Origin: a virus
Virus record (IMG/VR): IMGVR_UViG_3300031787_000755
Location: 1 to 25,469 of that record
Direction: 5' to 3' (one strand)
DNA length: 25,469 nt
A program made the translations under genes and the position numbers. The notes below the pieces were generated by a model. The model saw only the letters and a list, made by a program, of their open reading frames with translations, made no database searches and was not told where the DNA came from. Positions 342 through 22,687 of the stretch are shown here, one piece after another (position 1 is the first letter of the stretch; each line of letters starts with the position of its first letter).

Positions 342-1082
342 ATGAGCGGATTGAAACTGCACAAGATCGAGCACGTATCAGCGTCGAGCCTCAACCTGTT
401 TGCCGCCGAGCCGGCGCTCTGGGTGATGGAGCGGCTACTCAAGATGCGCTCGCCGGTCGGCCCGGCGGCGCATGTCGGGACCGCCGTGGAGCACGGCGTC
501 GAGTTCGCGCTCCTTAACCACGCGGAGCGCTATGACGCGCTGCCGCGCGCGCTGGAGCGGTATGACGAACTGGCCTCGGACATCGAGGCGAAAGGCAAGA
601 TCGCGGGCATGCTGGAGCAGGCGCTCCGGCAGCTTGAGCCCTACGGTCGCCCCGACGTGCCGGAGGACGGGCGTCAACATCGCGTCGAGATCGCGCTCGA
701 CGGCGTGCCGGTCCCCTGCGTCGGCTACACCGATTTCGTGTTCCACTCGCACGGCATCGTCATCGACCTCAAGACGTCCTCGACGCTGCCCAGCGCGATC
801 AAGGTCAGCCACGCGAGACAGGGCGCGGTGTATGCGCGCGCATTCTCCAACTACGCCATGCGCTTCTGTTACGCGACGCCGAAGAAATCCGCCGTCTACG
901 TTCTGGAAAACCCCGCCGATCATCTCGCGGCGCTGGCGAATATCGCGCGCCGGCTCGATCGGTTCCTGGCGGTCAGCGCCGATCCGGCGGAACTCGCGGC
1001 GATCGTGTGTCCTGACTACGACAGCTTTTACTGGTCCGCGCCCGAGGCGCGGGCGAATGGGCTCAAGGTCTTCGGCTTCTGA
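342..1082 (+). CDS. PD-(D/E)XK nuclease, RecB/Cas4-like phage exonuclease
   Basis: The 246-residue product carries the residues expected of a RecB/Cas4-type nuclease. These are a GTAVEHGVE segment near residues 46-54 (His51), an Asp in GYTD at 131, the IDLK motif with D142 and K144, and QxxxY at 160-164. Proteins of this size serve phages as recombination or replication exonucleases, but the exact substrate cannot be read from sequence. The ATG at 342 follows a GGAGG Shine-Dalgarno at about 331-335. It is the first clear gene of the + strand replication cassette and is followed 56 nt later by the SSB-like gene, which suggests joint action on DNA ends or single strands. I see no four-cysteine Fe-S cluster signature, so 'Cas4-like' refers only to the nuclease fold. 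Confidence 0.85.
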   Translation: MSGLKLHKIEHVSASSLNLFAAEPALWVMERLLKMRSPVGPAAHVGTAVEHGVEFALLNHAERYDALPRALERYDELASDIEAKGKIAGMLEQALRQLEPYGRPDVPEDGRQHRVEIALDGVPVPCVGYTDFVFHSHGIVIDLKTSSTLPSAIKVSHARQGAVYARAFSNYAMRFCYATPKKSAVYVLENPADHLAALANIARRLDRFLAVSADPAELAAIVCPDYDSFYWSAPEARANGLKVFGF

Positions 1083-1922: not shown

Positions 1923-4144
1923 CAGATCTCGACACGTCGCTGCGCCACGCGCTCGACTACTACGACCGCGGGCTGATGGTGGTTCCGACGCAGCGGATTA
2001 TCGCCGTGCGCGATGGGCGGCCGGTCTGCTCCTGTGCGAGCCGGGATCTATGCCCGTCGCCAGGTAAGCATCCCGCGCTGGCCTGGGCGGAGTTCCAGCG
2101 GCGTCGCCCGTCGCGCGACGAGGTCGCCGAGTGGTGGGCCGGCGATCGGGCGCGGCTCGGCGTCGGCATTCTGACGGGCGCCGTGTCCGGCAACATCTTC
2201 GTCGTCGACGTCGACATCGGGCCGGGCAAGGACGGCGACGACAGCCTGCGCGCGCTCCAGATGGCGCACGACGATCTGCCCGAGACCGCCGAGGTGCGGA
2301 CGGGCTCTGGCGGCAGGCATCTCTATTTCCGCGCGCCGCCGGGTGTCGCGGTGGTCAGGAACAGCGCGGGCAAGCTCGGGCCGGGCCTCGACATTCGGGG
2401 CGAGGGCGGCTTTGTCGTGGCGCCGCCGTCCGTGCATGCGAGCGGGCAACCCTATGTCTGGTCGTGGCTGAACACGCTCGCCGAAGGCATCGCCGATGCG
2501 CCCGGGTGGCTGCTCGAGCTCGTGCGCGCGGACGCGCCGGTCTCGGGTGCCACGCCGCGCGAGCGGGCGCCGGTCGAGCCGCTCCAGCGACCGGCGGGTG
2601 CCGGATCGACGGGCGGCCTGGAGCCGCCGGTCGACGACGGGCGCGAGGCCTACATGCGCGACACCGTGCATGCCGTCGCGATCGAACTGACCGGCGAGAA
2701 CGGCGCATGGCCGACCGCCGACGAGATCGCCGATGTCGCGTGGCCGCAATTCCGCCGCCGGGTCGACCTGTCGCGGCCCGGGCGGATCACCGCCGACAAT
2801 GCCGAGGCCGAGATGCGCGGGAAATGCGCCACGTGGGCGCGCAAGGCCGAGGCGGGCGGCTTCGGCGCGCTTGAGGACGTGGTGGCAGGGTATCAGGGCC
2901 GGAAGCGGTCAGACCCGCGTCAGGGGCCGGGAAATCGGCAGGAGGAACCGTCAAGCGATGCTTTACATTTCGAAGGAGCGGCGAGCGGCGGCGAGGACGA
3001 TCTCGCGCGGCCGTTTGTGCTGCGCTCGCCGTCCGATATCCCTCGCCGTCGCTGGCTCTACGGGAACAGCTACATCCGGTCTTTCGTGAGCGTTCTGGCC
3101 GCGCCGGGCGGCGCGGGCAAGACAACGCTCTACGTGGTCGAGTCGCTGTCGATCGCCACCGGAAAGGCGCTTCTCGGGGTTACGCCGACGGAGCGTGTCG
3201 GCGTCTGGATCATGAACCTTGAGGATCCGGCCGACGAGATGGAGCGCCGGATCGGTGCCGCCGCGAAGCACTACGGTATCGCGCAGCGCGATATCGAGGG
3301 GCGACTGTTCGTGGATGCGGGGCGCGAGAAACCCCTCACGATCGCGTACCAGACGCGCGACGGGATCACCATTCACCGGCCGATCGTGGATGCGATCGTT
3401 GAGAAGATCAGGCGGCACAAGATCGGCGTTCTTATCGTGGATCCGTTCGTGGCAAGCCATTCGGTGCCGGAGAACGACAATCAGGCCATCAACGCCGTGC
3501 TTGCGCTCTGGCGGCTCATCGCCGACCTGACGGGGTGCTGTATCGTGCTCGTCCACCACTTCCGAAAGCTCAACGGCGAAGAGGGGTCGATCGACAGCGT
3601 GCGCGGCGGAACGGCGATTATCGGGGCGGTCCGTACCGCCCGCGTCATGAACACCATGTCGGACACCGAGGCCGTCAAGCTCGGGATCGATGAGGCGCAG
3701 CGTCGCCGGTATGTCAGGATCGACGACGCGAAGAACAACCTCGCGCCGCCGGCAGACAAGGCGCAGTGGATCGAGCTGGTGTCGGTCGACCTGGGCAACG
3801 GCTCGGGCATCGCGCCGGAGGGCGACAAGGTCGGGGTGGCGACGCTGTGGGAGCCGCCGTCGGTCTGGGACGGGGTGACCGAGGATCACATGCGCGCGGT
3901 GCATAATCTCGTTCACCGAGATGGCGGTAAGCGGCAGAGCCCGCAGGCGGCCGGGTGGCTGGGCTTCGATGTCATCCGCATATGTGGCTTTGACGACGAC
4001 GCCGGAGGCCGCGCGAAGGCCAAGACGCTCCTGTCGAAGTGGGTTCACACGGGCGTCCTCAAGGTTGAAAAACAGCAGGACAAGACAGAGGGCAGGGCGG
4101 TCCCGGTCTACGTCGCAGGCAACCTTCCGCCGAGGACTGAGTGA
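1919..4144 (+). CDS. bifunctional primase-polymerase / RepA-like helicase
   Basis: The 741-residue fusion would prime and unwind DNA to start phage replication. Residues about 10-205 form a Prim-Pol (AEP) domain. Catalytic acidic residues lie in VDVD (96-99), the basic/His motif is SGGRHLYF (130-137), and GLDIRGEGGFVVAPPS (156-171) is the conserved block after it. A short Cys cluster (residues 37, 39, 45) precedes the core. A linker leads to a RecA-fold NTPase of the RepA/AAA_25 type: Walker A GGAGKTT (397-403), Walker B LIVD (505-508) and HHFRK (546-550). The C-terminal 90 residues look like a winged-helix DNA-binding region. I chose ATG 1919 over the in-frame GTG at 1856 because GGGAGAGG lies just upstream and the Prim-Pol homology begins there. 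The iteron cluster follows immediately. Confidence 0.92.
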   Translation: MTDLDTSLRHALDYYDRGLMVVPTQRIIAVRDGRPVCSCASRDLCPSPGKHPALAWAEFQRRRPSRDEVAEWWAGDRARLGVGILTGAVSGNIFVVDVDIGPGKDGDDSLRALQMAHDDLPETAEVRTGSGGRHLYFRAPPGVAVVRNSAGKLGPGLDIRGEGGFVVAPPSVHASGQPYVWSWLNTLAEGIADAPGWLLELVRADAPVSGATPRERAPVEPLQRPAGAGSTGGLEPPVDDGREAYMRDTVHAVAIELTGENGAWPTADEIADVAWPQFRRRVDLSRPGRITADNAEAEMRGKCATWARKAEAGGFGALEDVVAGYQGRKRSDPRQGPGNRQEEPSSDALHFEGAASGGEDDLARPFVLRSPSDIPRRRWLYGNSYIRSFVSVLAAPGGAGKTTLYVVESLSIATGKALLGVTPTERVGVWIMNLEDPADEMERRIGAAAKHYGIAQRDIEGRLFVDAGREKPLTIAYQTRDGITIHRPIVDAIVEKIRRHKIGVLIVDPFVASHSVPENDNQAINAVLALWRLIADLTGCCIVLVHHFRKLNGEEGSIDSVRGGTAIIGAVRTARVMNTMSDTEAVKLGIDEAQRRRYVRIDDAKNNLAPPADKAQWIELVSVDLGNGSGIAPEGDKVGVATLWEPPSVWDGVTEDHMRAVHNLVHRDGGKRQSPQAAGWLGFDVIRICGFDDDAGGRAKAKTLLSKWVHTGVLKVEKQQDKTEGRAVPVYVAGNLPPRTE

Positions 4145-4323
4145 TGGCAAGTTCCGCACCTTTCCGCACTTTTCCGCACCTCAAAACACGAGGTGCGGAA
4201 ACCCCTTTCCGCACTTCCGCACCGCACCCCTCTAGGGGTGCGGGGTGCGGTGCGGATGGGGTTTCATCCTGTGCGGTGGCTCAAATAGCCTCCGCACCTC
4301 CGCACCCCGAGGTGCGGAAATGA
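4144..4323 (+). CDS. possible 59-codon ORF running through the repeat cluster
   Basis: ATG 4144 overlaps the TGA of the primase gene (TGATG), and its own TGA (4321-4323) overlaps the ATG of the next gene (ATGA at 4320). The frame is therefore linked at both ends. The product is low-complexity and repetitive (FRTFPH, PFRTSAPHP), because it merely translates the CCGCAC repeats. I think the repeats are the functional element and that the open frame may only carry ribosomes across it. Confidence 0.3.
   Translation: MASSAPFRTFPHLKTRGAETPFRTSAPHPSRGAGCGADGVSSCAVAQIASAPPHPEVRK
4152..4319. repeat. iteron-like CCGCACC cluster, candidate replication origin
   Basis: TTCCGCAC(C) occurs directly at 4152-4160, 4162-4169, 4172-4180, 4207-4214 and 4215-4223. 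TCCGCACC occurs at 4291-4298 and 4299-4306. The reverse complement GGTGCGG occurs at 4192-4198, 4237-4243, 4244-4250, 4249-4255 and 4311-4317. These build three hairpins: 12-bp arms 4171-4182/4190-4201, 9-bp arms 4222-4230/4235-4243 with a TCTA loop, and 8-bp arms 4299-4306/4311-4318. Satellite phage P4 and iteron plasmids place such arrays beside the gene for their primase-helicase or Rep protein, which binds them. An origin is the leading reading. A recombination site or repressor operator is also possible. Confidence 0.65.
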
Positions 4324-7732: not shown

Positions 7733-8737
7733 TTATTTCGTCGATGCTTGCAATTCTGCCAGCGTGAGTTTCTGAGGCCAATACATGACGCGCTTGATGC
7801 GACCATTAGCAAAATTTGCTGACACAGTGTTGAAGCCTGTGCCGATGACCATCTGATCTGGTGACGGAACATTAGACACCGCAGTGATCGGCGTTCTGGA
7901 TTCAACGCTCATGGCAATTTCGCCAGCGATGTAAGAGCCAGCCAACTCGCTCTCAACACCCAAGGCATTGAATGAATCGGATGCAAGGACGGTCGCACCA
8001 CCAGTCAGCGAACGGGCGCGGGTGCTGGTCGAACTTCGTGCCTCAAGATTGAAAAGCTCAGTGCCACCAGCATTGCACAAAGATGCAAATATGCGTGCAT
8101 TGGTGCCTGTGATGCTGTTGACCACCGCGCCTTCAGCGTAGAGCGTGCCCTGCGTTGCGTTGAACCAGCTTGTGAAGTTGGAGCCAGTCAGCTTGGCAAC
8201 GTCGATGTTGCGCGTCTTTGTCGTGGCGTCGGTCGGGATGAATGAGGTGGCAAACGCTCCGGCCTCAAGGTTGGCAAACTGCACCGTGCCGCTGACAGTC
8301 AACGTCAAGGAGCCTGCCGCTGGCGTGAAAGTCAATGTCGTACGGGTTGGGTATGCGCCAGTACCGTTCACCGTTGCAGAGTGAGCGCCAGACAGCGTGA
8401 CAGTTCCCGTGCCATAGAACGACAGTGTGTGCGCCACTGCGGTGACTGTGACCGACTGCGTTGCCAGACTTGTGCCATCAATCAGGCTGTTGAGCAGCAA
8501 GTTTGTGCGTTGCTCTTCGATCAGCAGACCTTCGCAGACCAGCGTTGTCGGGTTGTAGTCGAAGCGTGGCAGGTCAGCATTGATCGCCGTGATGACGCCA
8601 GACGAGTTGATGACCGTAGCCGTGTTGCCAGATCGAGTGAACGTCACTCGCGGATCAAGCGCAGCCGTGGTGAAGTCCAGCGCCAGCTTGGGCAGGACTC
8701 GTTCTGTTGCAGTCAGTGAGTAAGAAGGCGTAATCAT
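7733..8737 (-). CDS. tail or head-fibre protein with LamG-like C-terminus
   Basis: The 334-residue product begins with LDFTTAALDPRVTFTRSGNT and continues through PRFDYNP and EGLLIEEQRTNLLLNS. I know this block from phage fibre and head-spike proteins. The middle is beta-rich. The last 130 residues read like a concanavalin/LamG jelly roll, ending IKRVMYWPQKLTLAELQAS. It probably binds a host surface glycan or decorates the capsid. The ATG overlaps the stop of the 28-codon gene as ATGA. It sits just after the tailspike gene, so the phage may carry two receptor-binding proteins. Confidence 0.7.
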   Translation of the reverse strand: MITPSYSLTATERVLPKLALDFTTAALDPRVTFTRSGNTATVINSSGVITAINADLPRFDYNPTTLVCEGLLIEEQRTNLLLNSLIDGTSLATQSVTVTAVAHTLSFYGTGTVTLSGAHSATVNGTGAYPTRTTLTFTPAAGSLTLTVSGTVQFANLEAGAFATSFIPTDATTKTRNIDVAKLTGSNFTSWFNATQGTLYAEGAVVNSITGTNARIFASLCNAGGTELFNLEARSSTSTRARSLTGGATVLASDSFNALGVESELAGSYIAGEIAMSVESRTPITAVSNVPSPDQMVIGTGFNTVSANFANGRIKRVMYWPQKLTLAELQASTK

Positions 8738-8820
8738 TTGGGTTTCACCCAGCCTTCCTGCTCATCGTGCTTATTTGGGAAATCAGCAGGCCAGCGCATT
8801 GGCATAGGTTGATTGCTCAT
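8734..8820 (-). CDS. 28-residue micro-protein between the spike and fibre genes
   Basis: The product begins MSNQPMPMRWPADFPNKHDE and ends WVKPK. The ATG (8820-8818) overlaps the tailspike stop as ATGA, and its own TGA (8736-8734) overlaps the next ATG as ATGA. AAGGGG lies 10 nt upstream. Four-base overlaps at both ends, with no wasted bases, argue for a real gene. It is rich in Pro and Trp, charged at the end, and has no TM segment. Function is unknown. It could assist folding or attachment of the fibre, or mainly provide coupling. Confidence 0.55.
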   Translation of the reverse strand: MSNQPMPMRWPADFPNKHDEQEGWVKPK

Positions 8821-10673
8821 CGGAAAATCACCCCTTCGCTTGTTAAAGTGTTGATGGTCTGACTGACACCGCCAGTCGCGCCAGCAGCGTTGATAAACGA
8901 CCCATTCTCAACCACAATATCGGTGACTGACGTTGTACCACCGCGCTGAAAATTGCTGCTTTGCGCGTTGATTGTTGAACCACTGGCAGCAAACACACCC
9001 TCGTTGGTTGCGCCAGTTCCGGTGCAAGATGATGCGTTTATAATTGATGCGCCCGCAGCATAAACAGACCTATTGCCAGCCCCAGTAATTGTGCTGCCAG
9101 TGCAATTGATTGTTGATCCTGATTCGCAACGAATAACGATGCCGGAACATCCGGTTGCGGTCAAACTTTCAACGTTGATGCGCGATGCCGCGTCTGCAAA
9201 TGCCGCTGCGTCATTTGTTCCTGTGCCGCAATTATTGGCTGTGCTAGATGCTGCGCTAATTGTTGAACCACCAGATGCAAAATATCCGTAAGTGCCAGCG
9301 CCACTTACATCGGTTTCGGTAGCATCAACCGTAGAACATGGGCTTGCGTAAACGCCGTTTTCGCCGCAGTCGGTAAGCGTTGCACCTCGCGCATGAATAG
9401 TGCATCCGTTACTTGCCAAAACACCCGAATGCTTGGCGTTTGTGGCCAACGCATCACGGGCCGCAATCCATGAACCATTAAACGCATAAATGCCATATCC
9501 AGCAGCCGCTGCGTCAGGGTAAGGCAAGTTTGTACCAGGGGCGCACCCAGCATAGTTTGATGTTACGCCATCGGCGCTCATCCAACCAGCATCGGTTGCG
9601 CGAAGGTTGTATCGGAAACAGTTGTTTGCAGTACCGTTGTCAATTACCAGAATGCCGCCGTGGGCTGCTTGAGCGCCGTAATACATTGAGTTGCTGACAT
9701 CTGCGCCTGATGCAAATACAGTGCTTCCCCATGAAACAATGCCTGATCCAGTTGTATTATTTTTAGCACACCCCGTCCAAATAGTGTCAAAGGCGTAGAT
9801 GGTGCTGCCACCGTATGCGCGGCAACCATCACCCCAAGTATTTTTAACGCCACAATTTGCCTCAACATAACCGACAGATGCACCCCACGCAGCGTAGCCA
9901 TAATTTGCTTTGGAGTTGGCATCCACAAGGCAAGCCAAGCGCGGAAGTTTGGCGTTTAAACCGTAGATGAAATTTGCAGACGTTCCGAAAGACGGAGACA
10001 GCACGACCTCTGCATCGGTCGAGGTGATGCGGAATTGTGAGTAATCACCATTCGCCACGGTGCATCCGCTTTGCGGCGAATGGCCAGACTCGATGTTGAG
10101 CGTGATGGTGATCTGCGGATTGTTCGGTGCCAAGCAGTCCACAGCCGTCTGCAAGTTTGCAGCATCGGTCGGAATGCGCACGGTCAGGTTGTCATTGACC
10201 AGCAACTTGAATGAGCCGGTGGCCGCTGTAATGGCGTCTGCCAGCGTAGCAAAGTCGCTGATGAAGTGCTCTAGTTCGAGTTGGTCTTGAACAGTAGTTG
10301 CAACAGCACCAAAGCCTGGAGGCTGGTAAACGACCTGATCTGCGTCAATCGTTCCTGTGAAAACAACATCACTGAATCGCTCAGTCGCAGCCGGTGCGCT
10401 GTATACCACGCTGCCGTTTTTGTTCTGCACCTGAATGCTGTAGTCGCTATTGACGTACAGACGTGCAGGAGTTCCATTGCGAGACGGATAACCGTTCAAT
10501 GTGCGGATTGGCTGTGGTGCTGCAATGGTTAGCGCAGCATCCCAATAGACGTTGATTGGGTTGGTCTGTGGATCAAGATTGGCCGTGCCGATCCAGATGT
10601 AGCCGTTCTCCAACGGCAACCCGTCCGTCTCTGTGAAGATCGGGTAGGTGGGTTGAATGGAAAGTGCGCTCAT
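8817..10673 (-). CDS. tailspike with P22-type head-binding domain and beta-helix
   Basis: Residues about 1-110 match the P22 gp9 head-binding domain style: FTETDGLPLENGYIWIG, NPINVYWD, LNGYPSRNGTPARLYVN, YSIQVQNKNG. That domain trimerises on the tail hub. Residues about 150-618 are a long run of short repeats (ASGGSTISAASSTANNCG and similar), a right-handed parallel beta-helix as in glycan-binding or glycan-cutting spikes. I cannot identify catalytic residues. At 618 residues it is close to the 667 of P22 gp9. The ATG overlaps the stop of the ejection-protein gene (ATGA). The gene is visibly more AT-rich than the ejection genes upstream, a usual sign of exchange of receptor-binding modules. 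Confidence 0.85.
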   Translation of the reverse strand: MSALSIQPTYPIFTETDGLPLENGYIWIGTANLDPQTNPINVYWDAALTIAAPQPIRTLNGYPSRNGTPARLYVNSDYSIQVQNKNGSVVYSAPAATERFSDVVFTGTIDADQVVYQPPGFGAVATTVQDQLELEHFISDFATLADAITAATGSFKLLVNDNLTVRIPTDAANLQTAVDCLAPNNPQITITLNIESGHSPQSGCTVANGDYSQFRITSTDAEVVLSPSFGTSANFIYGLNAKLPRLACLVDANSKANYGYAAWGASVGYVEANCGVKNTWGDGCRAYGGSTIYAFDTIWTGCAKNNTTGSGIVSWGSTVFASGADVSNSMYYGAQAAHGGILVIDNGTANNCFRYNLRATDAGWMSADGVTSNYAGCAPGTNLPYPDAAAAGYGIYAFNGSWIAARDALATNAKHSGVLASNGCTIHARGATLTDCGENGVYASPCSTVDATETDVSGAGTYGYFASGGSTISAASSTANNCGTGTNDAAAFADAASRINVESLTATGCSGIVIRCESGSTINCTGSTITGAGNRSVYAAGASIINASSCTGTGATNEGVFAASGSTINAQSSNFQRGGTTSVTDIVVENGSFINAAGATGGVSQTINTLTSEGVIFR

Positions 10674-13600
10674 CGTTGGTTCTCCTGATCGAATTGTCCT
10701 GCAGCTTGCATGGATTGCACAAGCCAGCGCTCGCGCCAGCTCAGCTCTCGCGGCATCTTGGCTGCGTCAGCAAAGCGCCGGAAGGCGGCAGAAAGTGCCA
10801 CGCTGCGGATCGTGGACTGGCTTGGGGTCGTCTTGGTCGCGCCTTCCACGGCCAGACGTTGAAACTCGGGTGACGAGATCAGCTCGTCGGCAGCCTTGAG
10901 CACCTCGGGCTTGACGCCCTTGGTCAATGCTGCCGTCAGGCCAGATGCGATGCCTGCACCAGGCAAGCCCACAGCCGTCGTGGCGGCCTCAGCCGGGATA
11001 CCGACTGCTGCACGCTTGGCCACGTTGAAGATGTTCGACAGCAGCGTGTCAGCGCCTTGCAGCTCCTGCTGGACGGCCTGAATCCGGCCTGTGGTGATGC
11101 GCTCGCGGGTGGCCTTGCGCACGTTGTTCGAGACCCGATACAGGTCCGACAGTGCCTTCCTGGCCGGCTGCGGCAGGTTGTTCATCAAGGCCGCATAGGC
11201 CTGCTTGTTCTGCAGCAGACCTTCGTACCAGTTGGCGTAGGTGTTGAAATTCAGCGCGCCGTTCTGCGTGGCCTTGCCGAAGGCCGTGTTCAGGGCCGAG
11301 GCTGCCACCATCTGGCGCATGTCCTCTGGGATGGCTTGCAGCACCTTGATCAACTTGTCGGCGTCGCCCTTAGACAGCGCCGTGGTGGCCGTGGACAGCT
11401 TGGTGACCAGACTCTGGTCCAGCTCGCGCCCGAACAGCGAGATCATGTCGTCCTCGATGCCCTTGCGCATGGACACCAGGCTTTTGGCCAGGCGGTACTG
11501 CTCGCCTCGGCCAGCGGCCTCAGCCAGCGCGAACTGGTCGTCGTCGATCAGCGCATACAAGCGCTTCGCCAGGCCGGTGTCGGCGTCCTTGAATGCGCCT
11601 TGCTGGCGTGCTGCAGCACCGATGTCGCGCCGCACGTCATCGATCAGCGCATAGGTAGGCTGGCGCATGCCGATCACATTGCCTGCATCGTCTTTGATCT
11701 CCTTCGGAGACAGCTTGCTGCGCACCGCCTTCTCCAGCGGAGAGAGGTTTTTCGGACCGTCCAAGTCCAGCGCACGCTGCTCGACGAAGGCCAGCACGTT
11801 GTCGGCTGGGCCACGAGTCTGGGCCGGGATGTTCTGGCGCAGGTCGTCGTAGGCTGTGTTGGCTCTGCGCTCCAGGTTGGCCACCGTCTGCGACAGGTTG
11901 GTGCGCACGGCCTGGTTCATGCGGCTGAGGTCGGTCATGCCGCCGATCTGGGTGATCAGGTCGTCTGCCTGCTTGCCCACGGCTTCCAGGCCAGTCAGCT
12001 CGGCTGCACGCGCCTGGCTGCCAGGGATCGACTTCACGGCCTGCGCCAGCTCGCGGTAGGCCTGGTTCGAGGTCAGGTGATCCGGCTGCAGGTAGCCCTC
12101 GATCTTGAGCCGACGCGCGGCCTCCAAGACCTTGGGATCGGGTGCAGCCTGGGTGGCCAGCACTTCGGTGGCTCGGCCAGCGCCCATGCCGCCGCCTGTG
12201 GCCGTCCTGGCGGTCTGCGCCAGCTCGGTGGTGGTCATCGGTGCGGCTGCAGCAGGTCTTGGCGGAACTGGAAATGTCACAGCACCACTTGGTTGAATAC
12301 CAGCAGGCATGACGCTAGGGGCTGGAGGAGCTGCCAGTGGCACCTCTGGGCCGACAGCGCCGGTCGGAGAAATTTCGCGCACGGTGCCGGTCGGAGGCAT
12401 GATTGGTGCAGCGACCTGCTCGCCTGCTGCAGGTGCAACAGGAGGAGCCTCGCCGCCGCGCACAGCGCGCACCATCTGCGGAATGCGGGTCACAGCCTGG
12501 CCAGCGCCGCCCATTGCTCCGGCCAGCGCCACCTCGCCAGTGTCGAATCGGCCACCAGTGGCGGCCTGGGTGGTCTCGATGGCTGCCTGAGTTGCCGCAC
12601 CGCCAGCAATGGCAGTGGGAATGGTGGCAGCACGGCCGGCAGGCGTGAAGGCTGCAATCGCACCGGCAGCTCGCGGGATGTCGCTGACCTGGAAGCCAGG
12701 CTTGATGGCGTACATTTGGCCGTCGATGGACGACTGCAGCACGAAGTTGCCCTTCTCGTCCTGGCTGACTTTCACGCCAGGGAAGTTGGCTTGGATGACC
12801 TGCACAGTCTCCTGCGGATTGGTCATCATCGTGCCCAGGGCCGACTTGAAGCTGGCCATGCTGAAGGTGTTCAGCTCAGGCATGCTGGCCCAGTCGGGCA
12901 GCGCTTGGGTTGTCGGCGTGGCGCGCTCGGTGCCGGTGACAGCCTCACGAATGCCACCCAGCACGCCCATCGGCTCGGTCTTCTGGAGTTGGAAGCCAGT
13001 CGGCACCTTGGCCATGCCGCTGGAGACGTCGCGCTCCAGCTCCATCATCTCCTCGCGTGTCATGCGTCCGGTGCTGTAGGCCTGCAGCACAGCCGCAGGC
13101 AGCTCTGGCGTGGTTGGTCTGGCACCTTGGGGCTGCTCGCCACGCAAGGCCGCGCCACGGGGTAGCATGAGGGTGCCGCCGCGAACGTCGGCCTCAAACT
13201 CTGCCGACTCTTCAGGCGTCATTTGTCCGGAGCTGTAGGCTTGGTAGACCCTCGCAATCGCATCCGGCGGTACAGCAGCCATGCTGCTGGCACCAAGAGC
13301 ACGCTGAAAGGTGCTGGTCGTGCCGCCCTCCGCAATAGTTGGTGCCTGCGCAGGGGCACGCTGTGGGCTGAGGTCGCGCACGCCTTGCGAGACGCGATCG
13401 ATGTATGCCCTGGTGCGTGGTCCCCAGTTGGCCGGGTTGGTACCGCCGTGGTACTCAGCAGCCGCCAGTTTGATGTCGCCCTTGTTGCGGTCCAGCGACT
13501 CCTTGAGCAGCAGGCCAGCGGCCTCGGCTGAGTTCTCTGGGCTGAGGTAGGCGTCCACGCCGTACTTCTTGAGCACCGCCTGGCGGGTGGCCGGGATGAT

Positions 13601-13774
13601 CTGGAATGGGGTTTTTGCGCCTGCCTCAGACACCTGGTCGGCATTGCTGCGCTCGCCTCGTGTGAGAACCGAGACCAGCAAGCCCTGCGGCAGCCCGAGC
13701 TTTTGCTCGGTGCCAGCGGCCAGGTCAGACCAAAACGGGTCTTTGTAGCTGGTGGGGGTTTGTTGCGTTGCCAT
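10670..13774 (-). CDS. large ejection protein with lytic transglycosylase domain (gp16-like)
   Basis: From ATG 13774 (MATQQTPTSYKDPFWSDLAA), 2 nt after the previous stop, the product has 1034 residues. A GTG 39 nt further upstream would overlap the previous gene and adds no homology. Residues about 25-130 form an SLT-type transglycosylase: E41 in TRGERSNADQ, then VSEAGAKTPFQIIPATR and AAEYHGG...GPRTRAYIDRV. It would open the peptidoglycan during DNA ejection. Then come two similar helical repeats (IARVYQAYSSGQMTPEES and VLQAYSTGRMTREEMMEL), an Ala-rich hydrophobic region, a Pro/Ala linker and a long helical C-terminus. Position matches P22 gp16 (609 residues), but the enlarged form with an SLT domain recalls T7 gp16. 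Confidence 0.8.
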   Translation of the reverse strand: MATQQTPTSYKDPFWSDLAAGTEQKLGLPQGLLVSVLTRGERSNADQVSEAGAKTPFQIIPATRQAVLKKYGVDAYLSPENSAEAAGLLLKESLDRNKGDIKLAAAEYHGGTNPANWGPRTRAYIDRVSQGVRDLSPQRAPAQAPTIAEGGTTSTFQRALGASSMAAVPPDAIARVYQAYSSGQMTPEESAEFEADVRGGTLMLPRGAALRGEQPQGARPTTPELPAAVLQAYSTGRMTREEMMELERDVSSGMAKVPTGFQLQKTEPMGVLGGIREAVTGTERATPTTQALPDWASMPELNTFSMASFKSALGTMMTNPQETVQVIQANFPGVKVSQDEKGNFVLQSSIDGQMYAIKPGFQVSDIPRAAGAIAAFTPAGRAATIPTAIAGGAATQAAIETTQAATGGRFDTGEVALAGAMGGAGQAVTRIPQMVRAVRGGEAPPVAPAAGEQVAAPIMPPTGTVREISPTGAVGPEVPLAAPPAPSVMPAGIQPSGAVTFPVPPRPAAAAPMTTTELAQTARTATGGGMGAGRATEVLATQAAPDPKVLEAARRLKIEGYLQPDHLTSNQAYRELAQAVKSIPGSQARAAELTGLEAVGKQADDLITQIGGMTDLSRMNQAVRTNLSQTVANLERRANTAYDDLRQNIPAQTRGPADNVLAFVEQRALDLDGPKNLSPLEKAVRSKLSPKEIKDDAGNVIGMRQPTYALIDDVRRDIGAAARQQGAFKDADTGLAKRLYALIDDDQFALAEAAGRGEQYRLAKSLVSMRKGIEDDMISLFGRELDQSLVTKLSTATTALSKGDADKLIKVLQAIPEDMRQMVAASALNTAFGKATQNGALNFNTYANWYEGLLQNKQAYAALMNNLPQPARKALSDLYRVSNNVRKATRERITTGRIQAVQQELQGADTLLSNIFNVAKRAAVGIPAEAATTAVGLPGAGIASGLTAALTKGVKPEVLKAADELISSPEFQRLAVEGATKTTPSQSTIRSVALSAAFRRFADAAKMPRELSWRERWLVQSMQAAGQFDQENQR

Positions 13775-13775
13775 C

Positions 13776-15257
13776 TTATGGTGCGCCTGTGAACGGGCTT
13801 GGCACAGTGACACCGCCTCCGAATGGCGGTGGGTTCACTGGCGTCGTGGGCAGTGGCGATAGATTTTGAGCAGGTGCTGCACCAGGCACAGCGCCTGTTT
13901 CAGGGTTGGCAAAGCGCATGTAGCTACGGCCAGACACCGCACGGCCAGCTTGAGCTGCTGCCAAGTCCTGCGCACGCTGGTCCATGAACTGGCGTGCAAA
14001 GTCCACGTAGGTGGTGCCTTTAGGCACTTGGATGCCGCCGATGTCGATGTCTTTGTTGGCACGGCCAAGGGTGCCGTTTGAGTTCACCCACTCAGACTTG
14101 GCGCTTTCGGCCACCGCCTCGTACTGCGCCATCTTGGCCATGCCGCGCAGGAATGATGCGAGCACGGCTGCATCAGCCGTCTCTGGGGGCAAGCCCTTGA
14201 GCGCCAGCTCGATGTCCTTGTCTGTGGCCACGCCTGGTGGCAACGACTTGATGGCCTGCGTGTTGCGCAGCCGGGTGTACTCGTTGCGCAGTTGCGTGAA
14301 GCCATCCTGATTGCCGGTGAGGTTTTTCACCTTCTCAGAGAACGATGTCCCTGCGCCCCTACCGCCGCCAGCTGACTCCATGCGGCTGGCCAGATCGAGC
14401 ATGCGGCCTGCGGCCTGCTCAGAGCCGACGGCAGCCACTGCTGCATCGTTGACGATCTTGGCTGCGTTGGCATCGAGCGTGGTGCCCTTTTGGTTCAGCT
14501 CGAAGAGCTTGAGTTCAACGTCAGACTGCAACTTGTCGCGGTCTAATTTCAGCTTGTCTTGATCAAGCACCAGCCTGTTGGAGCGTTCCACGATCTGGCT
14601 GTCCAAGTTGCGGATGTTGGCCGCCGTCTGCGTGTTCTCCAGCGCCAGGCGGGTCGGCGTGTTGGCCGTGATCAGCTCTTCCTTGGTCGCGCCAGCCTCG
14701 CCAGCACGAATCTCAGCCGGTGCCTTGAGCGCTTGGATGGACGATGTCAGCACCTTGTCGCCGCCAGGCACACCTGCCAGCATGATGCCGATGGTCTTCT
14801 GGGCGCTCTGTGGGCTGACCTCGGCCATCTGTGCCCAGGTTTCGTATGCCTTGGCCTGGCCTTCGCGGCCGGCATTGCGTTCTGCCGTGGCGCGCTCGCG
14901 CAGGAGCTGGATGCCGATCTGCGGCTGGTTGGCGCTGAATGCCGAGATGACTTGACCACCAAAGCGCAACTGGTTCTGCTGCTGCTCTTTGGACAGCGTC
15001 TCAAAGTTGGCGCGCATGCTGGCTGCTTCTTTTTCAGGCAGCAGCATGGCCACGTTGATGAAGTCTCGCGCAGTCGGGTTGGGATTTTGAATCAGTGCAT
15101 TGACCTGCGTTTGCAAGTTCTGCTTGCGCACCAGCTCCTGCTCCTGCAGTTGACGCTGAGCACCGATGTCGGCAATCGTTGCGCCGATCTTGAAGCCGCC
15201 CAAAGCAGCCTCAAAAGGACTCTGGACGTTGAGTGAATAGTTGATTGGTTGGACCAT
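13776..15257 (-). CDS. internal virion / DNA ejection protein (gp20-like)
   Basis: ATG 15257 (MVQPINYSLNVQSPFEAALG) follows AAGGAGCC and gives 493 residues. The frame is open to a GTG at 15302, but that would overlap the previous gene. The protein is almost all helix, with a strong coiled coil near residues 215-275 (LDQDKLKLDRDKLQSDVELK) and a Pro/Gly-rich tail. By position and length it corresponds to P22 gp20 (471 residues), one of three proteins expelled into the host envelope with the DNA. Its own sequence gives no catalytic motif. It lies 10 nt after the gp7-like gene and 2 nt before the gp16-like gene. Confidence 0.7.
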   Translation of the reverse strand: MVQPINYSLNVQSPFEAALGGFKIGATIADIGAQRQLQEQELVRKQNLQTQVNALIQNPNPTARDFINVAMLLPEKEAASMRANFETLSKEQQQNQLRFGGQVISAFSANQPQIGIQLLRERATAERNAGREGQAKAYETWAQMAEVSPQSAQKTIGIMLAGVPGGDKVLTSSIQALKAPAEIRAGEAGATKEELITANTPTRLALENTQTAANIRNLDSQIVERSNRLVLDQDKLKLDRDKLQSDVELKLFELNQKGTTLDANAAKIVNDAAVAAVGSEQAAGRMLDLASRMESAGGGRGAGTSFSEKVKNLTGNQDGFTQLRNEYTRLRNTQAIKSLPPGVATDKDIELALKGLPPETADAAVLASFLRGMAKMAQYEAVAESAKSEWVNSNGTLGRANKDIDIGGIQVPKGTTYVDFARQFMDQRAQDLAAAQAGRAVSGRSYMRFANPETGAVPGAAPAQNLSPLPTTPVNPPPFGGGVTVPSPFTGAP

Positions 15258-15267
15258 TTGTGGCTCC

Positions 15268-16203
15268 TTATACCTTGCTGTAGTCCACGGTGAGATAGCC
15301 ACCGGACTGGCCCACAGCGTCAGGATAGATGCCCAGCACCTCTTGCGCCATCAGACCGATCTGACGACCGCCGCCCCAGGTGTATTCAAACTCGTAGACG
15401 CCCAGGCCATCTGACCGGGTGCCGATGCGTTGGATGTTCTTTTTCAGCCGGATGTCGCTGAAGATGTTGCGCAGACCTGGCGTCATTGCTGTGCCAGCCT
15501 TGCCTGCGGTCGCACCGTACTGCGCGCCCAAGAACTGAGCAGGCAGGTTCAGGACGTTGGCAAAGGCTTGGCCCTGCGCCAGCTCTGCGCCAGCGCGTGC
15601 AGCACCTTGCTGCCCCATCAATCCTGCGATGTCTGCACCGGTTCTCAGGCCAGCCGTGGCCGTGCCTGCAGCCGATGCCTGGCCCATTTGTGCCAAGTTC
15701 TGGCTGGTGAGCTGGCCCAGTGATGTCAGGCCGCCAAGGCGACCGTACTGGGTTGCGATTTCTTGCTGCAGCATTTGTGGCCTGAACTGTGCCAATGCGG
15801 CTTGGATGTTGCCACCGCGCAGGCCACCAGTGGCCGATGCACGCTGCAGCAGCGCCTCCTCTCCCTGCCGGACTTGAGCCTGAAAGCCTGCGCCCTGCTC
15901 AATGCCTGCAATGGCTGCTTGCTGAGCCTCTGGGCCGCGCAGGCCAAGCAATGCCTGCTGCTGCTCCAGTGCAGGCGCTCCGGCTGCAGCGTAAGGCTGC
16001 AGGCCACCGATGGCAGTGGTGCCTGCGGTGACGTAGGGCTTGAGGATTTCTTGCACCGCCTCAAACTGGCGACGCTGCTCATCGATGCCAGCCTGTGCAG
16101 CTTGCGTTTGTGCGCCTGCCGCTTGACTGGCTGCTCTGCTTTGCACCATGCCGCCGACAACTTGGGTGCCTCCGACAACTAGGGCTGTTACTGGATCAGG
16201 CAT
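15268..16203 (-). CDS. gp7-like ejection protein ending in an S74-type chaperone motif
   Basis: Residues 1-245 are Ala/Gln/Gly-rich and helical with a short hydrophobic start (VTALVVGGTQVVGGMV), like P22 gp7 (229 residues). The C-terminal 65 residues are different: FSDIRLKKNIQRIG (248-261), YEFEYTW, IGLMAQEVLGIYPDAV and LTVDYSKV. These match the start and core of the intramolecular chaperone/Peptidase_S74 domain, normally found at the end of fibres and spikes. S249-D250 is the usual self-cleavage site. The domain stops right after VDYSKV, before the helical part seen in longer members. The ATG overlaps the upstream gene's stop by 8 nt. It could trimerise the protein or be removed on maturation. 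Confidence 0.75.
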   Translation of the reverse strand: MPDPVTALVVGGTQVVGGMVQSRAASQAAGAQTQAAQAGIDEQRRQFEAVQEILKPYVTAGTTAIGGLQPYAAAGAPALEQQQALLGLRGPEAQQAAIAGIEQGAGFQAQVRQGEEALLQRASATGGLRGGNIQAALAQFRPQMLQQEIATQYGRLGGLTSLGQLTSQNLAQMGQASAAGTATAGLRTGADIAGLMGQQGAARAGAELAQGQAFANVLNLPAQFLGAQYGATAGKAGTAMTPGLRNIFSDIRLKKNIQRIGTRSDGLGVYEFEYTWGGGRQIGLMAQEVLGIYPDAVGQSGGYLTVDYSKV

Positions 16204-16645
16204 TGCCGAACTCTTTCATGTAATCTTCAAGCGTCTCGCCGTACAGCTCCATGACTTGTTGCGCCGTTTCAGTGGCGCGCTGAGTGCCGTGGCACAGCGC
16301 CACCGTCATCAGCACCACGTCATAGTAGCCTGCACGCCAGACAAACGAGCGTGCATCTGCCTTGCCACTGCGTTCGGCCTGGTCAGATGCTTGCCACTTT
16401 AAAATCATCGACGCCACGACAGGCGTCAGGGTTTGCGAGTTTGCAATCCAGAATGTGTTTTGGCTCATGCCGACCAGGGTGTTCCAGATCGCAGCGTTCA
16501 GGTCATCACGTTCGACAGCATCACCGTCGGCCACGTCATCAAAGACCTGAATCGCTCCATAGAGCATGAGCAGCCACTCGATGGCTGGCGCAGGTAGCGC
16601 AAGAACCCTTTGCAGGTTCAGTCTCAGCCAATCGACACCAGTCAT
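16196..16645 (-). CDS. hypothetical protein, positional counterpart of P22 gp14
   Basis: ATG 16645 (MTGVDWLRLNLQRVL) follows GAAAGG. A TTG at 16651 is a weaker start. The 149-residue product is helical and rich in Trp and Met, with an acidic segment (VFDDVADGDAVERDDLN) and a hydrophobic helix (YYDVVLMTVALCH). I recognise no family. In P22 the gene before gp7 is gp14, an ejection-assembly factor. This gene holds the same position and is near the same size, but similarity is not visible to me. Its stop overlaps the gp7-like start. Confidence 0.65.
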   Translation of the reverse strand: MTGVDWLRLNLQRVLALPAPAIEWLLMLYGAIQVFDDVADGDAVERDDLNAAIWNTLVGMSQNTFWIANSQTLTPVVASMILKWQASDQAERSGKADARSFVWRAGYYDVVLMTVALCHGTQRATETAQQVMELYGETLEDYMKEFGNA

Positions 16646-16726
16646 GCGCAACCTTTCAATGGTCGGATGAGCTGCTAGCGGCTCGATAAGCTTAGCCCTT
16701 GCATTTTCTCACAATTTGACATTTGG

Positions 16727-17134
16727 TCAATCCTCGTCTTCTTCCCGGTCTTCCCAGGCTTGGCAGACGCGCATGTCGTTGCAGATGAAGTTCAGCTTCT
16801 CGCAGTGGCCACGAAAGCCTGCGCCCTTGTCGTAGGCTGCCATCGGGATGCGCTCGATGCGCACCTGTGCCATCAGGCTGTTGTCGTAGTAGCCGCAGTT
16901 GGAGCAGTGCTTGCGCCGTGCGTCCTTCTCGTCGCATTGCATGGCCTCGGCCAGCCCTGCATAGAACTCCTTGTTTGCGCCTGGCTCGTTGGTTGGCACC
17001 TCGGGGCCGTAGTTCCAGTCCTGCACCGCAATGACGTAGTTCTTTTTGTTCTCTGCGTTGGTCAGCATCGGCTCGCCCATAGGGATGCCGCCGAACCCGG
17101 CAATCATCATTTTTGGCATTTTTGCGTAGTCCAT
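16727..17134 (-). CDS. hypothetical protein with a six-Cys metal-binding pattern
   Basis: The 135-residue product has cysteines at 67, 77, 80, 111, 118 and 124, including CSNC (77-80) and GHCEKLNFICNDMRVC (109-124), and an acidic tail EDREEDED. The arrangement suits a zinc or iron-sulfur site. The N-terminal 60 residues include a Gly-rich GFGGIPMGEP segment. An AGGAGC site lies upstream of ATG 17134. It sits in the stretch between needle and ejection genes, where P22 has small virion assembly genes. An 81-nt gap follows it, the longest between adjacent genes in the right block, and holds no clear promoter. Confidence 0.7.
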   Translation of the reverse strand: MDYAKMPKMMIAGFGGIPMGEPMLTNAENKKNYVIAVQDWNYGPEVPTNEPGANKEFYAGLAEAMQCDEKDARRKHCSNCGYYDNSLMAQVRIERIPMAAYDKGAGFRGHCEKLNFICNDMRVCQAWEDREEDED

Positions 17135-17144
17135 GTGGTGCTCC

Positions 17145-17480
17145 TTATGTAATCTCGCGGCCAGACACGCGCAGCGTCAGTGCTGTGGCGTTGCTGGCGA
17201 TGGTGCTGATAAATGCACCGGCATCCAGCTCTTGGCCGACCAGCTCGGGGCACAGGTAGGTCTCGCCTGGCACCACGGTGCGGTCGTCAATGATCAGGTT
17301 GGAATTACCTGCGCTGCCGCCCACTTGCACCAGGTTGACGCTGAACGTGCGGTTCACCGTGTCGGTGTTGGTGACGGTGGCCTTGTCGATCAGCGCCTTG
17401 GCGGCCGTGGCCGTGTATTGCGTGGTCTGGGTGGCCTCCATCTGCTTGGGAGGCACGAGGGTTTTTACGGTGACGGTCAT
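17145..17480 (-). CDS. hypothetical beta-rich virion protein
   Basis: The 111-residue product has a Thr-rich start and alternating strands (NRTFSVNLVQVGG, NLIIDDRTVVPGETYLCPEL, ALTLRVSGREIT). It looks like a small beta-sandwich, as in capsid or tail accessory proteins. It has no signal peptide or TM helix. The ATG follows the previous stop directly (TAAATG), so it is probably translated by coupling. I recognise no family. Its place right after the needle candidate suggests a tail role. Confidence 0.65.
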   Translation of the reverse strand: MTVTVKTLVPPKQMEATQTTQYTATAAKALIDKATVTNTDTVNRTFSVNLVQVGGSAGNSNLIIDDRTVVPGETYLCPELVGQELDAGAFISTIASNATALTLRVSGREIT

Positions 17481-18350
17481 TTACTGGACTCCTTGGATGT
17501 TGTTGGCGACTGTGAGAATAACGGACGGGATGCCTGGATGCGGGGCCACTGCGCCAGAGGCCAAAAGTTGCACGCCAAGGTTGCTGACCGAGTACATCAG
17601 CTCAACATAGTCGCCAGCTTTGAGATTGAAAAAGAAGTTCAGCGCCACAAACACTTCGGCATTGTTGCCTTGAACACGCAACTGGCTCGCCGAATTAGTG
17701 ACATCCACTCCATTGAGTCTGAACCACAAATAGAAATTTTCTGCAGTAGCAACTGATGAATCAAGTTGAATGCTGGTCTGAAAATTGTAGATTCCATCGG
17801 TGTCAACATAGACGCGAGATGTCGGCGTTCCTAAATAGACGCCATTGCTCAAGTCGGTGGTGTTGAAGGTGATGGCGGTTGCTGTGTTTATGACCAGTGC
17901 CGCCTGCGTGGTGGTGTCGTAAAACGAGCCGTACCGCGCACGCTTGAACTCTCTGGCTGGTGGTGTCATCTGCAGCCCTTCGACGGCTGAGGTCAGTTGA
18001 GCCAGCAGTGCCATCACCTGGTTGACCTTGTTCTCCGTTGACGCGATGCTGACCGCAGCGTTTTGGGCCAGTGATGCGATCTGGTCCAAGGCCAGCGTGG
18101 CGTTGCCATCGATCACGGCAGAGCTGACAGCGGCCTCCTGCGCCAGCGCAGCAATCATGCCCAGCGCCTGCACAGCAGTTGCCTGGGCAGTGCCTGCAGC
18201 GATGTTGATCTCCAGCACCACATCAGGCGCAATGGCGTCGACCGTTGCGAACAACAGCTCGAACTGCCTGATCTGCTGCTGGTCGGTCAGGAACTGCGCG
18301 AGCTGGTCGCGGGTCAGGTTTAGCTTGCGGGAGACGGGTGCGGTGGCCAT
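17481..18350 (-). CDS. tail needle candidate: helical stalk with TNF/C1q-like knob
   Basis: Residues 1-130 of the 289 are helical, with heptad-like runs (LDQIASLAQNAAVSIAS, NKVNQVMALLAQLTSAVEGL). Residues 140-285 look like a jelly roll of the TNF/C1q kind: DTDGIYNFQTSIQL (183-196), ENFYLWFRLNG, FVALNFFFNLKAGDYVELMY. P22 places its tail needle gp26 directly after gp10, and Sf6 carries a needle with a TNF-like knob. This gene is directly after the gp10-like gene, sharing TGATG with it. I infer a needle that plugs the tail and touches the host envelope first. A short fibre is the alternative. It is somewhat longer than P22 gp26 (233 residues). Confidence 0.6.
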   Translation of the reverse strand: MATAPVSRKLNLTRDQLAQFLTDQQQIRQFELLFATVDAIAPDVVLEINIAAGTAQATAVQALGMIAALAQEAAVSSAVIDGNATLALDQIASLAQNAAVSIASTENKVNQVMALLAQLTSAVEGLQMTPPAREFKRARYGSFYDTTTQAALVINTATAITFNTTDLSNGVYLGTPTSRVYVDTDGIYNFQTSIQLDSSVATAENFYLWFRLNGVDVTNSASQLRVQGNNAEVFVALNFFFNLKAGDYVELMYSVSNLGVQLLASGAVAPHPGIPSVILTVANNIQGVQ

Positions 18351-19753
18351 CAGTACAGCAACCCTTCGATCTGCATCTCAAGTCGTGCAAATGCAATATG
18401 TGAATCGCTGTCACCACGGAAACGCTGGATGCGCCAGTTGCGCATGTGGCCCTGCTGGAACCATGCCAGGCGCTTGGAGGTGTTGCCGATGGTGCCCACG
18501 TAGATGTAGCGGTCCTGGCTGTAGGACAGGCCGTCCAGTGAGTAGCTGGTGCTGATCTGCGGGTTGGTGCCCAGCGCCACTCGTCCGGTCAGGCTCACCA
18601 GCTCCATCTTTTGGAATAGCGCGCCCTTGCCCTCGTTGTAGGCAATGATGGTGCCAAACTCCCAGCGCACCTGCTGCCCCCAGTGGCTGCCGATGTCGTC
18701 CACCAGATAGCCGATGGTGCTGGACTGCGGGTCGCCCACCAGCCACTTGTCGTATGCCCAGACGAGGTTGCGTGCTCGGTACTGCGCAAAGCCCACCACC
18801 GTGGTGGTCAGGGTAAACCACACCTGATCGCCCAGCGCCTCGGATGCGGCTGCGTCATAGACGATGGTGCGGTCTGGCAGGTGCACATACAGGTGCTCGT
18901 GCGCCTTATCGTTGCGTGCCTCCATCTTCACCACAGCCAATTGCACCTCAGTGTAGGTCTGCAACAGCTCGTCGATTTCCTGTGTGCTTATTTTTGTTGC
19001 AGTCGCGTTTGCGCCGAGGTAGATGCCTGGGGCTTCGTTGCGGCCGCTGCCCAAAAAGGCGATGCGGTCGATGTAGACGCAGCAGGAAAAGGTGCCGACC
19101 ACGCCCTTTTGGATTTGAGCGCCATCGATGCGTGCGAACGGAAACAGCTCGCCGCCAGTGTTGTCGAACACCTCGATGGTGTTGCGGTTGAGAGCGTAGA
19201 CCTCGTTGCGCAGCTTGAGCAGCGCGACCACGGGGTCGGGGTCGACCTCGGAGCTGCCGTACTTTAGCGGGTTGACATCCAGCGGATTGGACAGCTCGGT
19301 GACGATCAGGAACTCGCCGTCGGTGGTCATGAAGTAGCCGTCCACCCAAACAACATCAAGCACGACGCCAAGGTCTGGATCGGTCACTTGAGTAAGTGCG
19401 CCGTTCCAGTAGTACAAGCGCCCACCGGATGCAATGGCCAGGCGGTCGAAGCTGTAGTCCATGGTCACCAGAGTGTTGACGGGGCCGCCAACGTCACCGA
19501 GCACTGTCACAGCGCCATTGCTGGCCACGGTCACGAGCTTTGTACCCATGACGCGGTAGCAGACGCCGTTCCAGTTGATGCCGCCACGGTCGATGCCTGG
19601 GCCGCTGCCGTTAGCCACGAGGCCATCGCCTGGTCGCAGGTAGCCGGTGCTGATGCCGCTGTTCTTGGGCACCGGCACCATGTTGACCGGGTAGGACGTG
19701 CGAAAGTCCGGTCCGTTGTCCGTGTAGATGCCGTTGAGAATTGAGATTTGCAT
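18350..19753 (-). CDS. packaged DNA stabilization / tail hub protein (P22 gp10-like)
   Basis: The 467-residue product is all beta, with a repeat style typical of a propeller: YRVMGTKLVTVASNGAVTVL, RLAIASGGRLYYWNG, LKLRNEVYALNRNTIEVFDN, DRIAFLGSGRN. The N-terminus reads LNGIYTDNGPDFRTSYPVNM. Length and content fit P22 gp10 (472 residues), the hexameric hub that closes the portal after packaging and carries the spikes. Its place between a gp4-like gene and a needle candidate supports this. It starts 2 nt after the previous stop and ends in TGATG with the needle gene. Confidence 0.88.
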   Translation of the reverse strand: MQISILNGIYTDNGPDFRTSYPVNMVPVPKNSGISTGYLRPGDGLVANGSGPGIDRGGINWNGVCYRVMGTKLVTVASNGAVTVLGDVGGPVNTLVTMDYSFDRLAIASGGRLYYWNGALTQVTDPDLGVVLDVVWVDGYFMTTDGEFLIVTELSNPLDVNPLKYGSSEVDPDPVVALLKLRNEVYALNRNTIEVFDNTGGELFPFARIDGAQIQKGVVGTFSCCVYIDRIAFLGSGRNEAPGIYLGANATATKISTQEIDELLQTYTEVQLAVVKMEARNDKAHEHLYVHLPDRTIVYDAAASEALGDQVWFTLTTTVVGFAQYRARNLVWAYDKWLVGDPQSSTIGYLVDDIGSHWGQQVRWEFGTIIAYNEGKGALFQKMELVSLTGRVALGTNPQISTSYSLDGLSYSQDRYIYVGTIGNTSKRLAWFQQGHMRNWRIQRFRGDSDSHIAFARLEMQIEGLLY

Positions 19754-19755
19754 GG

Positions 19756-20052
19756 TTACTTCTTAGCCTTGTTTCGGGCCGAGATTTTCTTGGCCTTGGC
19801 CTGTGCGTCAGCTTTGCTTGACGCGCCCCAGGCTTTCAGACTGAGCAGCAACCTGGTCGGCTCGCCGTCTTTGTACTCAGGGCCGGGGTTGTTTCCCATG
19901 CGTGCCAAGAACGACGCCCTGCGTGGGTTGTCGCCGGACTTGACAGGCGGCTTGATGTTCTGGCCTGCAGCCTTTAGGCTGGCGCGCCCAGCAGCGTTCA
20001 AGCCGCCCTTGGGGTTCTGCCCCTCCTTGCGCTGCCATGCCGGTGTTTTCAT
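19756..20052 (-). CDS. small Lys-rich protein, DUF6321-like
   Basis: The 98-residue basic product begins KTPAWQRKEGQNPKGGLNAA and continues with FLARMGNNPGPEYKDGEPT, ending in a Lys/Ala tail. I associate KTPAWQRKEG...PKGGLN with a family of unknown function found in phages and large viruses (DUF6321). The charge suggests nucleic-acid contact. The ATG overlaps the previous stop as ATGA, the last link of a chain of three tiny coupled genes just before gp10. Confidence 0.75.
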   Translation of the reverse strand: MKTPAWQRKEGQNPKGGLNAAGRASLKAAGQNIKPPVKSGDNPRRASFLARMGNNPGPEYKDGEPTRLLLSLKAWGASSKADAQAKAKKISARNKAKK

Positions 20053-21675: not shown

Positions 21676-21683
21676 GATGGTCC

Positions 21684-22166: not shown

Positions 22167-22167
22167 G

Positions 22168-22634: not shown

Positions 22635-22651
22635 GATTCGCTCCTAAGTGA

Positions 22652-22679
22652 GACAGGCCAACATTTCTGCTGGCCTGTC
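22652..22679 (-). terminator. hairpin between the coat-group genes and the small tail genes
   Basis: GACAGGCCA and TGGCCTGTC (22652-22660 and 22671-22679) pair over 9 bp with a 10-nt loop, just past the stop of the gene at 22688-23299. No T-run follows, so it is probably a partial terminator or RNA-stability element. It would let coat-group mRNA be made in excess over tail mRNA. Confidence 0.5.
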
Positions 22680-22687
22680 GGGGTTTA

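Follow-up and report, generated by a model that had tools for sequence, protein, structure and literature searches.

The window, by which we mean the whole analysed stretch of 25,469 nt (IMG/VR virus record IMGVR_UViG_3300031787_000755), carries a plus-strand block of nuclease and replication genes and then a minus-strand, P22-like structural block (Table 1). The structural block encodes a coat protein (PF11651), a tail accessory factor (PF11650), a stabilisation protein (PF11134), a head-binding/beta-helix tailspike, an internal protein with an SLT domain and an S74 chaperone. It also contains a small DUF6321 (PF19846) protein. A PD-(D/E)XK nuclease or phage exonuclease-like gene lies upstream of the Prim-Pol gene. 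No match to a RepC-like family was found among the window proteins scanned.

The replication block contains one large gene, our initiator candidate, for whose product Pfam recognised a Prim-Pol domain (PF09250, E 3e-40) and an AAA_25 helicase domain (PF13481, E 5e-39). When a profile of the helicase was built from its relatives, its sole match among PDB sequences was RepA of plasmid RSF1010 (1g8y/1nlf/1olo, E 2e-22); the Prim-Pol part gave nothing at E 0.01. A dense array of short repeats begins 7 nt 3' of the stop codon (4142-4144), and is followed directly by a conserved gene whose product had no Pfam or PHROG match.

Table 1. Features of the window (positions are those of the window)
Feature	Position	Strand	Details
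PD-(D/E)XK nuclease / phage exonuclease-like gene	342..1082	+	
Initiator candidate, 762 aa	1856..4144	+	Prim-Pol aa 32-218; RepA/AAA_25 RecA-fold helicase aa 391-573; C-terminal winged helix (predicted)
Winged-helix domain, predicted origin-binding	3881..4117	+	aa about 676-754; no Pfam family
Gln697 codon, suffix residue	3944..3946	+	Q with CACC, R with CAGT
Thr744-Glu745-Gly746 codons, wing tip	4085..4093	+	745 tracks motif position 2; 746 and 744 track NN
Three direct iterons TTCCGCACC/TTCCGCACT/TTCCGCACC	4152..4180	+	spacing 10 bp
Hairpin A, iteron opposite inverted iteron	4171..4201	.	12-bp stem (4171-4182/4190-4201), 7-nt loop
Central hairpin B, tandem and inverted iterons	4200..4264	.	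15-bp stem (4216-4230/4242-4256); inner tip CCCC-TCTA-GGGG, outer arms AACCCC/GGGGTT; architecture conserved in relatives
Isolated reverse iteron core GTGCGG	4271..4276	-	
Hairpin C, two direct iterons CTCCGCACC and one inverted GGTGCGGAA	4290..4319	.	10-bp stem (4291-4300/4309-4318); abuts start codon of next gene
Last inverted iteron GAGGTGCGGAA	4308..4322		overlaps likely ribosome-binding region of next gene
Downstream gene, 175 aa	4320..4847	+	directly 3' of array; kept beside both motif types
P22-like virion block	7733..24593	-	
DUF6321 gene	19756..20052	-	within virion block

The C-terminal part of the initiator candidate is predicted to be a winged helix without a described family, fused to the RepA-type helicase. 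An AlphaFold2 model of 113 aa, starting at aa 650 and based on a 73-row alignment, consists of three helices (model residues 27-40, 53-61 and 67-83) and two strands (86-92 and 99-105), with pLDDT mostly >90 over the fold. By their position in this model, residues 744-746 occupy the wing tip (model 95-97), and residue 697 is in the loop preceding helix 2 (model 48). The structural neighbours (Foldseek, VIA) were generic winged helices, such as those of BLM RQC, PadR, MecI and TFE, and are non-specific (best Z about 8); the P4 origin-binding domain was absent among the matches listed. Searches against PDB sequences returned only a meaningless bromodomain match (E 0.76), and Pfam gave no meaningful family either for the domain of the window or for its 72 relatives.

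The repeat array and its distribution

The first-pass annotation had described a dense cluster of more than a dozen copies of a 7-9 nt motif, folded into three perfect hairpins, directly after the Prim-Pol/helicase gene. Cluster, hairpins and position stand: positions 4152-4319 hold 14 CCGCAC/GTGCGG hexamers, eight forward and six reverse, far above chance (at most four per 170 bp in 20,000 Markov simulations with the local composition), and CCGCACC occurs 11 times. The core shared by the copies is shorter than the full 9-mer TTCCGCACC, which is present in only five copies (3 + 2), with none elsewhere in the window. Folded as single-stranded DNA, the array has a z-score of -10.4. In the array of the window, no AT-rich melting element could be seen. 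Cumulative GC skew, which had been suggested as a check, gave no usable origin signal in the window and two circular relatives, and showed no clear minimum at the array in those two.

The gene order of Prim-Pol/helicase, array and next gene recurs in IMG/VR relatives, with array words that differ. To this we added a wider sampling of 34 loci in bacterial genomes (titled Alphaproteobacteria), more virus contigs, and plasmids of Methylobacterium, Microvirga and Rhodoplanes. An array was defined as at least four identical T[GT]CNNC[AG] heptamers within 260 bp, and the count was restricted to unique loci that had 400 bp or more of sequence on the 3' side. By this definition, 103 of the 166 unique homologues have an array 3' of the gene, compared with none of 166 in shuffled DNA and one of 166 in an upstream coding control; 72 of the 166 reach at least six identical heptamers. 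The other 63 homologues have no array by this strict definition, some of them with arrays that are degenerate, displaced or on short contigs. The proposal of an iteron-type origin beside its own initiator is thus supported, and the check proposed earlier, a look for homologous primase genes that have no adjacent array, failed to refute it.

The carriers of the array include Alphaproteobacterial phages, prophages and phage-plasmids. For example, plasmid pVL1_6 of Methylobacterium indicum combines the array with genes for a toprim primase, the RepA-helicase, ParA and toxin-antitoxin functions, and a scan of ten of its proteins revealed no further initiator; this gene content is suggestive of replicon function. 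Both pVL1_6 and plasmid 1 of Rhodoplanes serenus (L139) are circular, carry phage tail or head genes together with the cassette, and are apparently phage-plasmids. Of the phages in culture, Rhizobium phage RHph_X2_26 alone has a closely related helicase, and no array could be located beside its gene.

Many marine phages form a group in which helicase gene and array are separated by an endonuclease-like gene, assigned to PHROG endonuclease and HNH families, and the array therefore starts about 470 bp downstream. In L103 (4096-4540) and other marine relatives the inserted gene is probably a free-standing HNH/endonuclease-VII-like gene between the helicase stop and the array, and it is possible that it encodes a homing or origin-targeting nuclease. 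L101 has a short tandem repeat expansion (unit near ACTACGACA) about 455-525 bp past the helicase stop, directly before the array.

The hairpins, too, are a property of the family. Facing iterons within 60 nt were present in 102 of the 105 arrays examined. Because both motif arms are iterons they would pair anyway, and the inner stem is the independent part. In the 102 loci, the perfect stem inside the spacer averages 7.6 bp, versus 4.2 bp in shuffled spacers. It is often tipped CCCC-TAAA/TATA/TTTA-GGGG, and the stem is kept while its sequence varies. The marine relatives have an AT-rich stretch in the spacer between facing iterons, plausibly a melting element. Strong inverted repeats that separate two co-oriented genes would also fit an RNA-level element, such as a terminator, an attenuator or a structured leader. 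We consider this very unlikely: an Rfam scan gave no match, and the direct iterons outside the stems covary with the stems and with residues of a DNA-binding-type fold (see below), which RNA folding alone is insufficient to explain.

Covariation of repeat letters and protein residues

All array words fit the pattern 5'-T[G/T]C-NN-C[A/G][CC/GT]-3'; the word is constant inside each array and changes from one array to another. The window shares TTCCGCACC with L003 and L016, whereas TTCCGCACTG/CTGCGGAA are found in L004-L007 and others, and TGCTCCACC in L008, L010 and L015. As the word changes from phage to phage, TTCCGCACC cannot serve as the signature of an origin class, a possibility raised initially, and is one local variant of a far more variable class.

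Across about a hundred relatives, the letters of the repeat covary with four amino acids of the protein encoded upstream. Residue 697 follows the last bases of the motif: Gln occurs with CAC in 43 of 43 loci and Arg with C[AG][GA]T in 48 of 50 (Fisher 1.6e-24; 100 loci, these and the following counts being inflated by close relatives). Lys697 (L091, L092, L097, L112, L370 and L402) represents a third suffix state, in which motif positions 6-7 are CG instead of CA; this was so in 4/4 loci of the first set and 2/2 of the new set (L370 and L402). Residue 745 follows motif position 2, with Arg accompanying G in 90 of 94 loci; the four exceptions appear to belong to L004-L013, a lineage whose wing alignment is uncertain. 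Where this position is T, Arg is absent (6/6, again with an uncertain wing alignment for the TTC lineage).

The central NN dinucleotide is followed by residue 746. His is associated with G as the first base (21/21), Arg with TC (17/18), Lys with GC or TC (20/21), Met or Asn mostly with A or C first (24/25), and Glu or Asp with NG (5/5). Residue 744 further splits GA (Ser/Ala) from GT (mostly Gln). The wing of the window reads Glu745-Gly746. Independent relatives are scarce in its lineage, and the rule for residue 746 therefore does not predict the CG dinucleotide of the window; for its TTC-CG word, only the rules linking Gln697 to CACC and the loss of Arg745 to TTC apply.

Because these counts include relatives, we made a matched nearest-neighbour contrast. 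Residue 746 differs in 91% of the 43 non-overlapping nearest-neighbour pairs whose NN differs (mean helicase identity 83%), compared with 33% of 36 pairs that share the NN. Across helicase and C-terminal domain, it is the column that discriminates best.

The rules from the earlier loci were also applied to a held-out set of 41 new, non-identical loci from 398 and 397 further genomes. With T[GT]C cores, at least three copies in a 380-bp region and no prediction for unseen residues, they were correct for NN in 14 of 14 loci, for position 2 in 15 of 16 and for the suffix in 13 of 14, under a scoring that was tightened after the result of a looser version had been seen. The means after permuting the predictions among held-out loci were 0.42, 0.71 and 0.53, respectively. 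The looser version (980-bp region, looser cores, at least four copies) gave 13/15 for position 2, 10/12 for NN and 8/12 for the suffix, its misses being mainly distant or misaligned homologues and spurious arrays. An initiator-origin pairing rule can thus be read, it appears, from sequence alone.

Close relatives indicate how the pairs change. The proteins of L005 and L008 are 90-100% identical over the body, and 35-50% over the last ~100 aa. In this pair and in L074/L084, a divergence of about 30-60% is confined to the C-terminal domain and the array, in a block that reaches from near this domain to the start of the next gene, with most flanks near 0-15%. We interpret these blocks as cassette exchange, and the gene downstream of the array marks the right boundary of the exchanged unit. 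L128 and L132 are a near-identical pair of phages. Their words are TGCGAC and TGCTCC, and their wing residues ASRHMR and SQRRLR; the last wing segment and the initial bases past the stop diverge by 18-22% and the array by 11-18%, compared with mostly 0-8% for the helicase and for the greater part of the intervening endonuclease gene.

Exchanged blocks that cover both domain and array, as in L005/L008 and L074/L084, could by themselves produce covariation through genetic linkage, with the two parts functionally unrelated. The chance of this is, in our judgement, minimal. Identical residue-base pairings (His746 with G, Arg746 with TC) turn up again in lineages that are far apart and have predictive value for the held-out genomes, and all copies within an array change together. 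Furthermore, the change of wing codons and iterons in L128/L132, across an endonuclease gene that is mostly unchanged, argues against linkage. The covariation points instead to the encoded protein as the binder of the array.

A candidate origin and its known counterparts

Our preferred reading, to which we assign a probability of about 0.83, is that the array is the replication origin of the phage, and that the Prim-Pol/RepA-helicase encoded just upstream is its initiator, with the winged helix binding the iterons. We infer the following course of initiation. The C-terminal winged helix would dock the protein on the 9-bp iterons 3' of its own gene, wing-tip residues 744-746 reading motif positions 2 and 4-5, and residue 697 the last bases. 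The loaded molecules would then assemble a RepA-type helicase hexamer, which would open the DNA. The hairpins of inverted iterons may be extruded or exposed as single strands, where the Prim-Pol domain could prime. Array and DNA-binding domain, being adjacent, would be exchanged as one cassette or co-mutated, which would give each phage its own origin address.

The same protein might instead bind the array as an operator, as a copy-control or incompatibility site, or as a packaging site, and not as the place where replication starts. Iterons of known replicons act in copy control too. In addition, the overlap of the last iteron with the presumed ribosome-binding region of the next gene means that binding of the initiator could also control, and possibly repress, that gene. 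We regard such a role in place of an origin as unlikely, since about ten sites with conserved GC hairpins are excessive for an operator, and the protein that carries the binding domain is also a replicative helicase and primase. In SaPI, SCCmec and pRN1, comparable layouts represent origins or putative origins (PMC7581432, PMC4234260).

The layout as such, an initiator gene with iterons directly downstream, is already known from SaPI/SCC Rep, P4 and pRN1. In SaPI Rep and SCCmec Cch2, as predicted here, the initiator helicase has a C-terminal dsDNA-binding domain, which recognises iterons downstream (PMC7581432), and an origin of short repeats lies directly 3' (putative for SCCmec). The anatomy of our locus and its covariation agree with such recognition, which for the window protein is a prediction. 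Their primase, however, is encoded nearby, whereas the Prim-Pol is fused here; the helicase family is a different one, and the 9-bp T[GT]CNNC[AG].. iterons come with GC hairpins. A sequence link to the SaPI/SCC helicases was not found, the only PDB match of the helicase profile being to RSF1010.

Replicons of the pRN1 ORF904/BIP-1 type unite Prim-Pol, helicase and C-terminal winged helix in one protein, as here (PMC4234260). They also have a large stem-loop directly 3' of the gene, comparable to the hairpins at 4171-4318, and in pRN plasmids the origin stem is conserved while its sequence is not (PMC4234260). pRN1 differs by an SF3 helicase in place of RepA/AAA_25, the lack of iterons, and binding motifs that are "not yet identified" (PMC4234260). 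The oriV of RSF1010 shares with our locus the RepA-type helicase and the combination of iterons with hairpins, the latter being the ssi sites used for priming (PMC4234260). There, RepC, RepA and RepB' divide the jobs of initiation (PMC4234260), and iterons are bound by a separate RepC; here, the RepA-type protein carries its own predicted DNA-binding domain and primase.

The P4 alpha/ori system, to which the first-pass annotation compared the arrangement, also has a winged helix in its primase-helicase, and origin repeats of similar look. Its repeat, which we take to be GGTGAACAG, i.e. CTGTTCACC, resembles TGCNNCACC. Binding of the P4 origin repeats by the winged helix is stated in the part of PMC4234260 that cites Yeo 2002. 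P4 alpha, however, has a Toprim primase (PMC4234260) and a helicase of another family, whereas the window encodes a Prim-Pol (PF09250) and an AAA_25 helicase like that of RSF1010 RepA. Membership in the P4 system is therefore highly improbable, and the label P4-type is not supported.

Joint changes of initiator and origin have precedents. In the PLE of Vibrio cholerae, the DNA-binding domain of RepA and the ori iterons covary and swap as a module, and only the cognate pair replicates (PMC8263062); that protein has a RepA_N domain, repeats of about 30 bp and two specificity groups, instead of a residue-base code. In geminiviruses, short iterons differ among close relatives and the specificity of Rep follows (PMC12548392), in rolling-circle ssDNA viruses whose fold and mechanism are unrelated to the present system. 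No description of this family of RepA-type helicase, winged helix and iterons was found in the open-access literature. What appears to be new is that an RSF1010 RepA-type helicase carries a reader domain not described before, and that its specificity follows a switching code, base by base.

Proposed rewriting of origins in phages and phage-plasmids

DNA recognition by winged helices usually eludes simple codes, and it is an old question by what route an initiator can switch specificity together with a dozen origin sites. Here, nature offers dozens of switches, several of them in phages that are otherwise almost the same, and the rule extends to pairs from which it was not derived. On balance, we think it probable that an undescribed winged helix on a RepA-type helicase is used throughout a widespread family of phages and phage-plasmids, Alphaproteobacterial and marine and for the most part uncultured, and that the wing tip of this domain, together with one residue ahead of it, acts as a modular code for the 9-bp origin word T[GT]C-NN-C[AG][CC/GT]. 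Protein and about ten iterons would have been rewritten together repeatedly, yielding many orthogonal origins. The benefits would be a testable amino-acid-to-base code, a means of annotating origins in the genomes of uncultured phages, and a supply of replicons that are orthogonal to one another. For the phages themselves, rewriting the origin is possibly an escape from incompatibility or from origin-targeting competitors; in the PLE/ICP1 system, origin-targeting nucleases can select for swaps of origin and initiator (PMC8263062).
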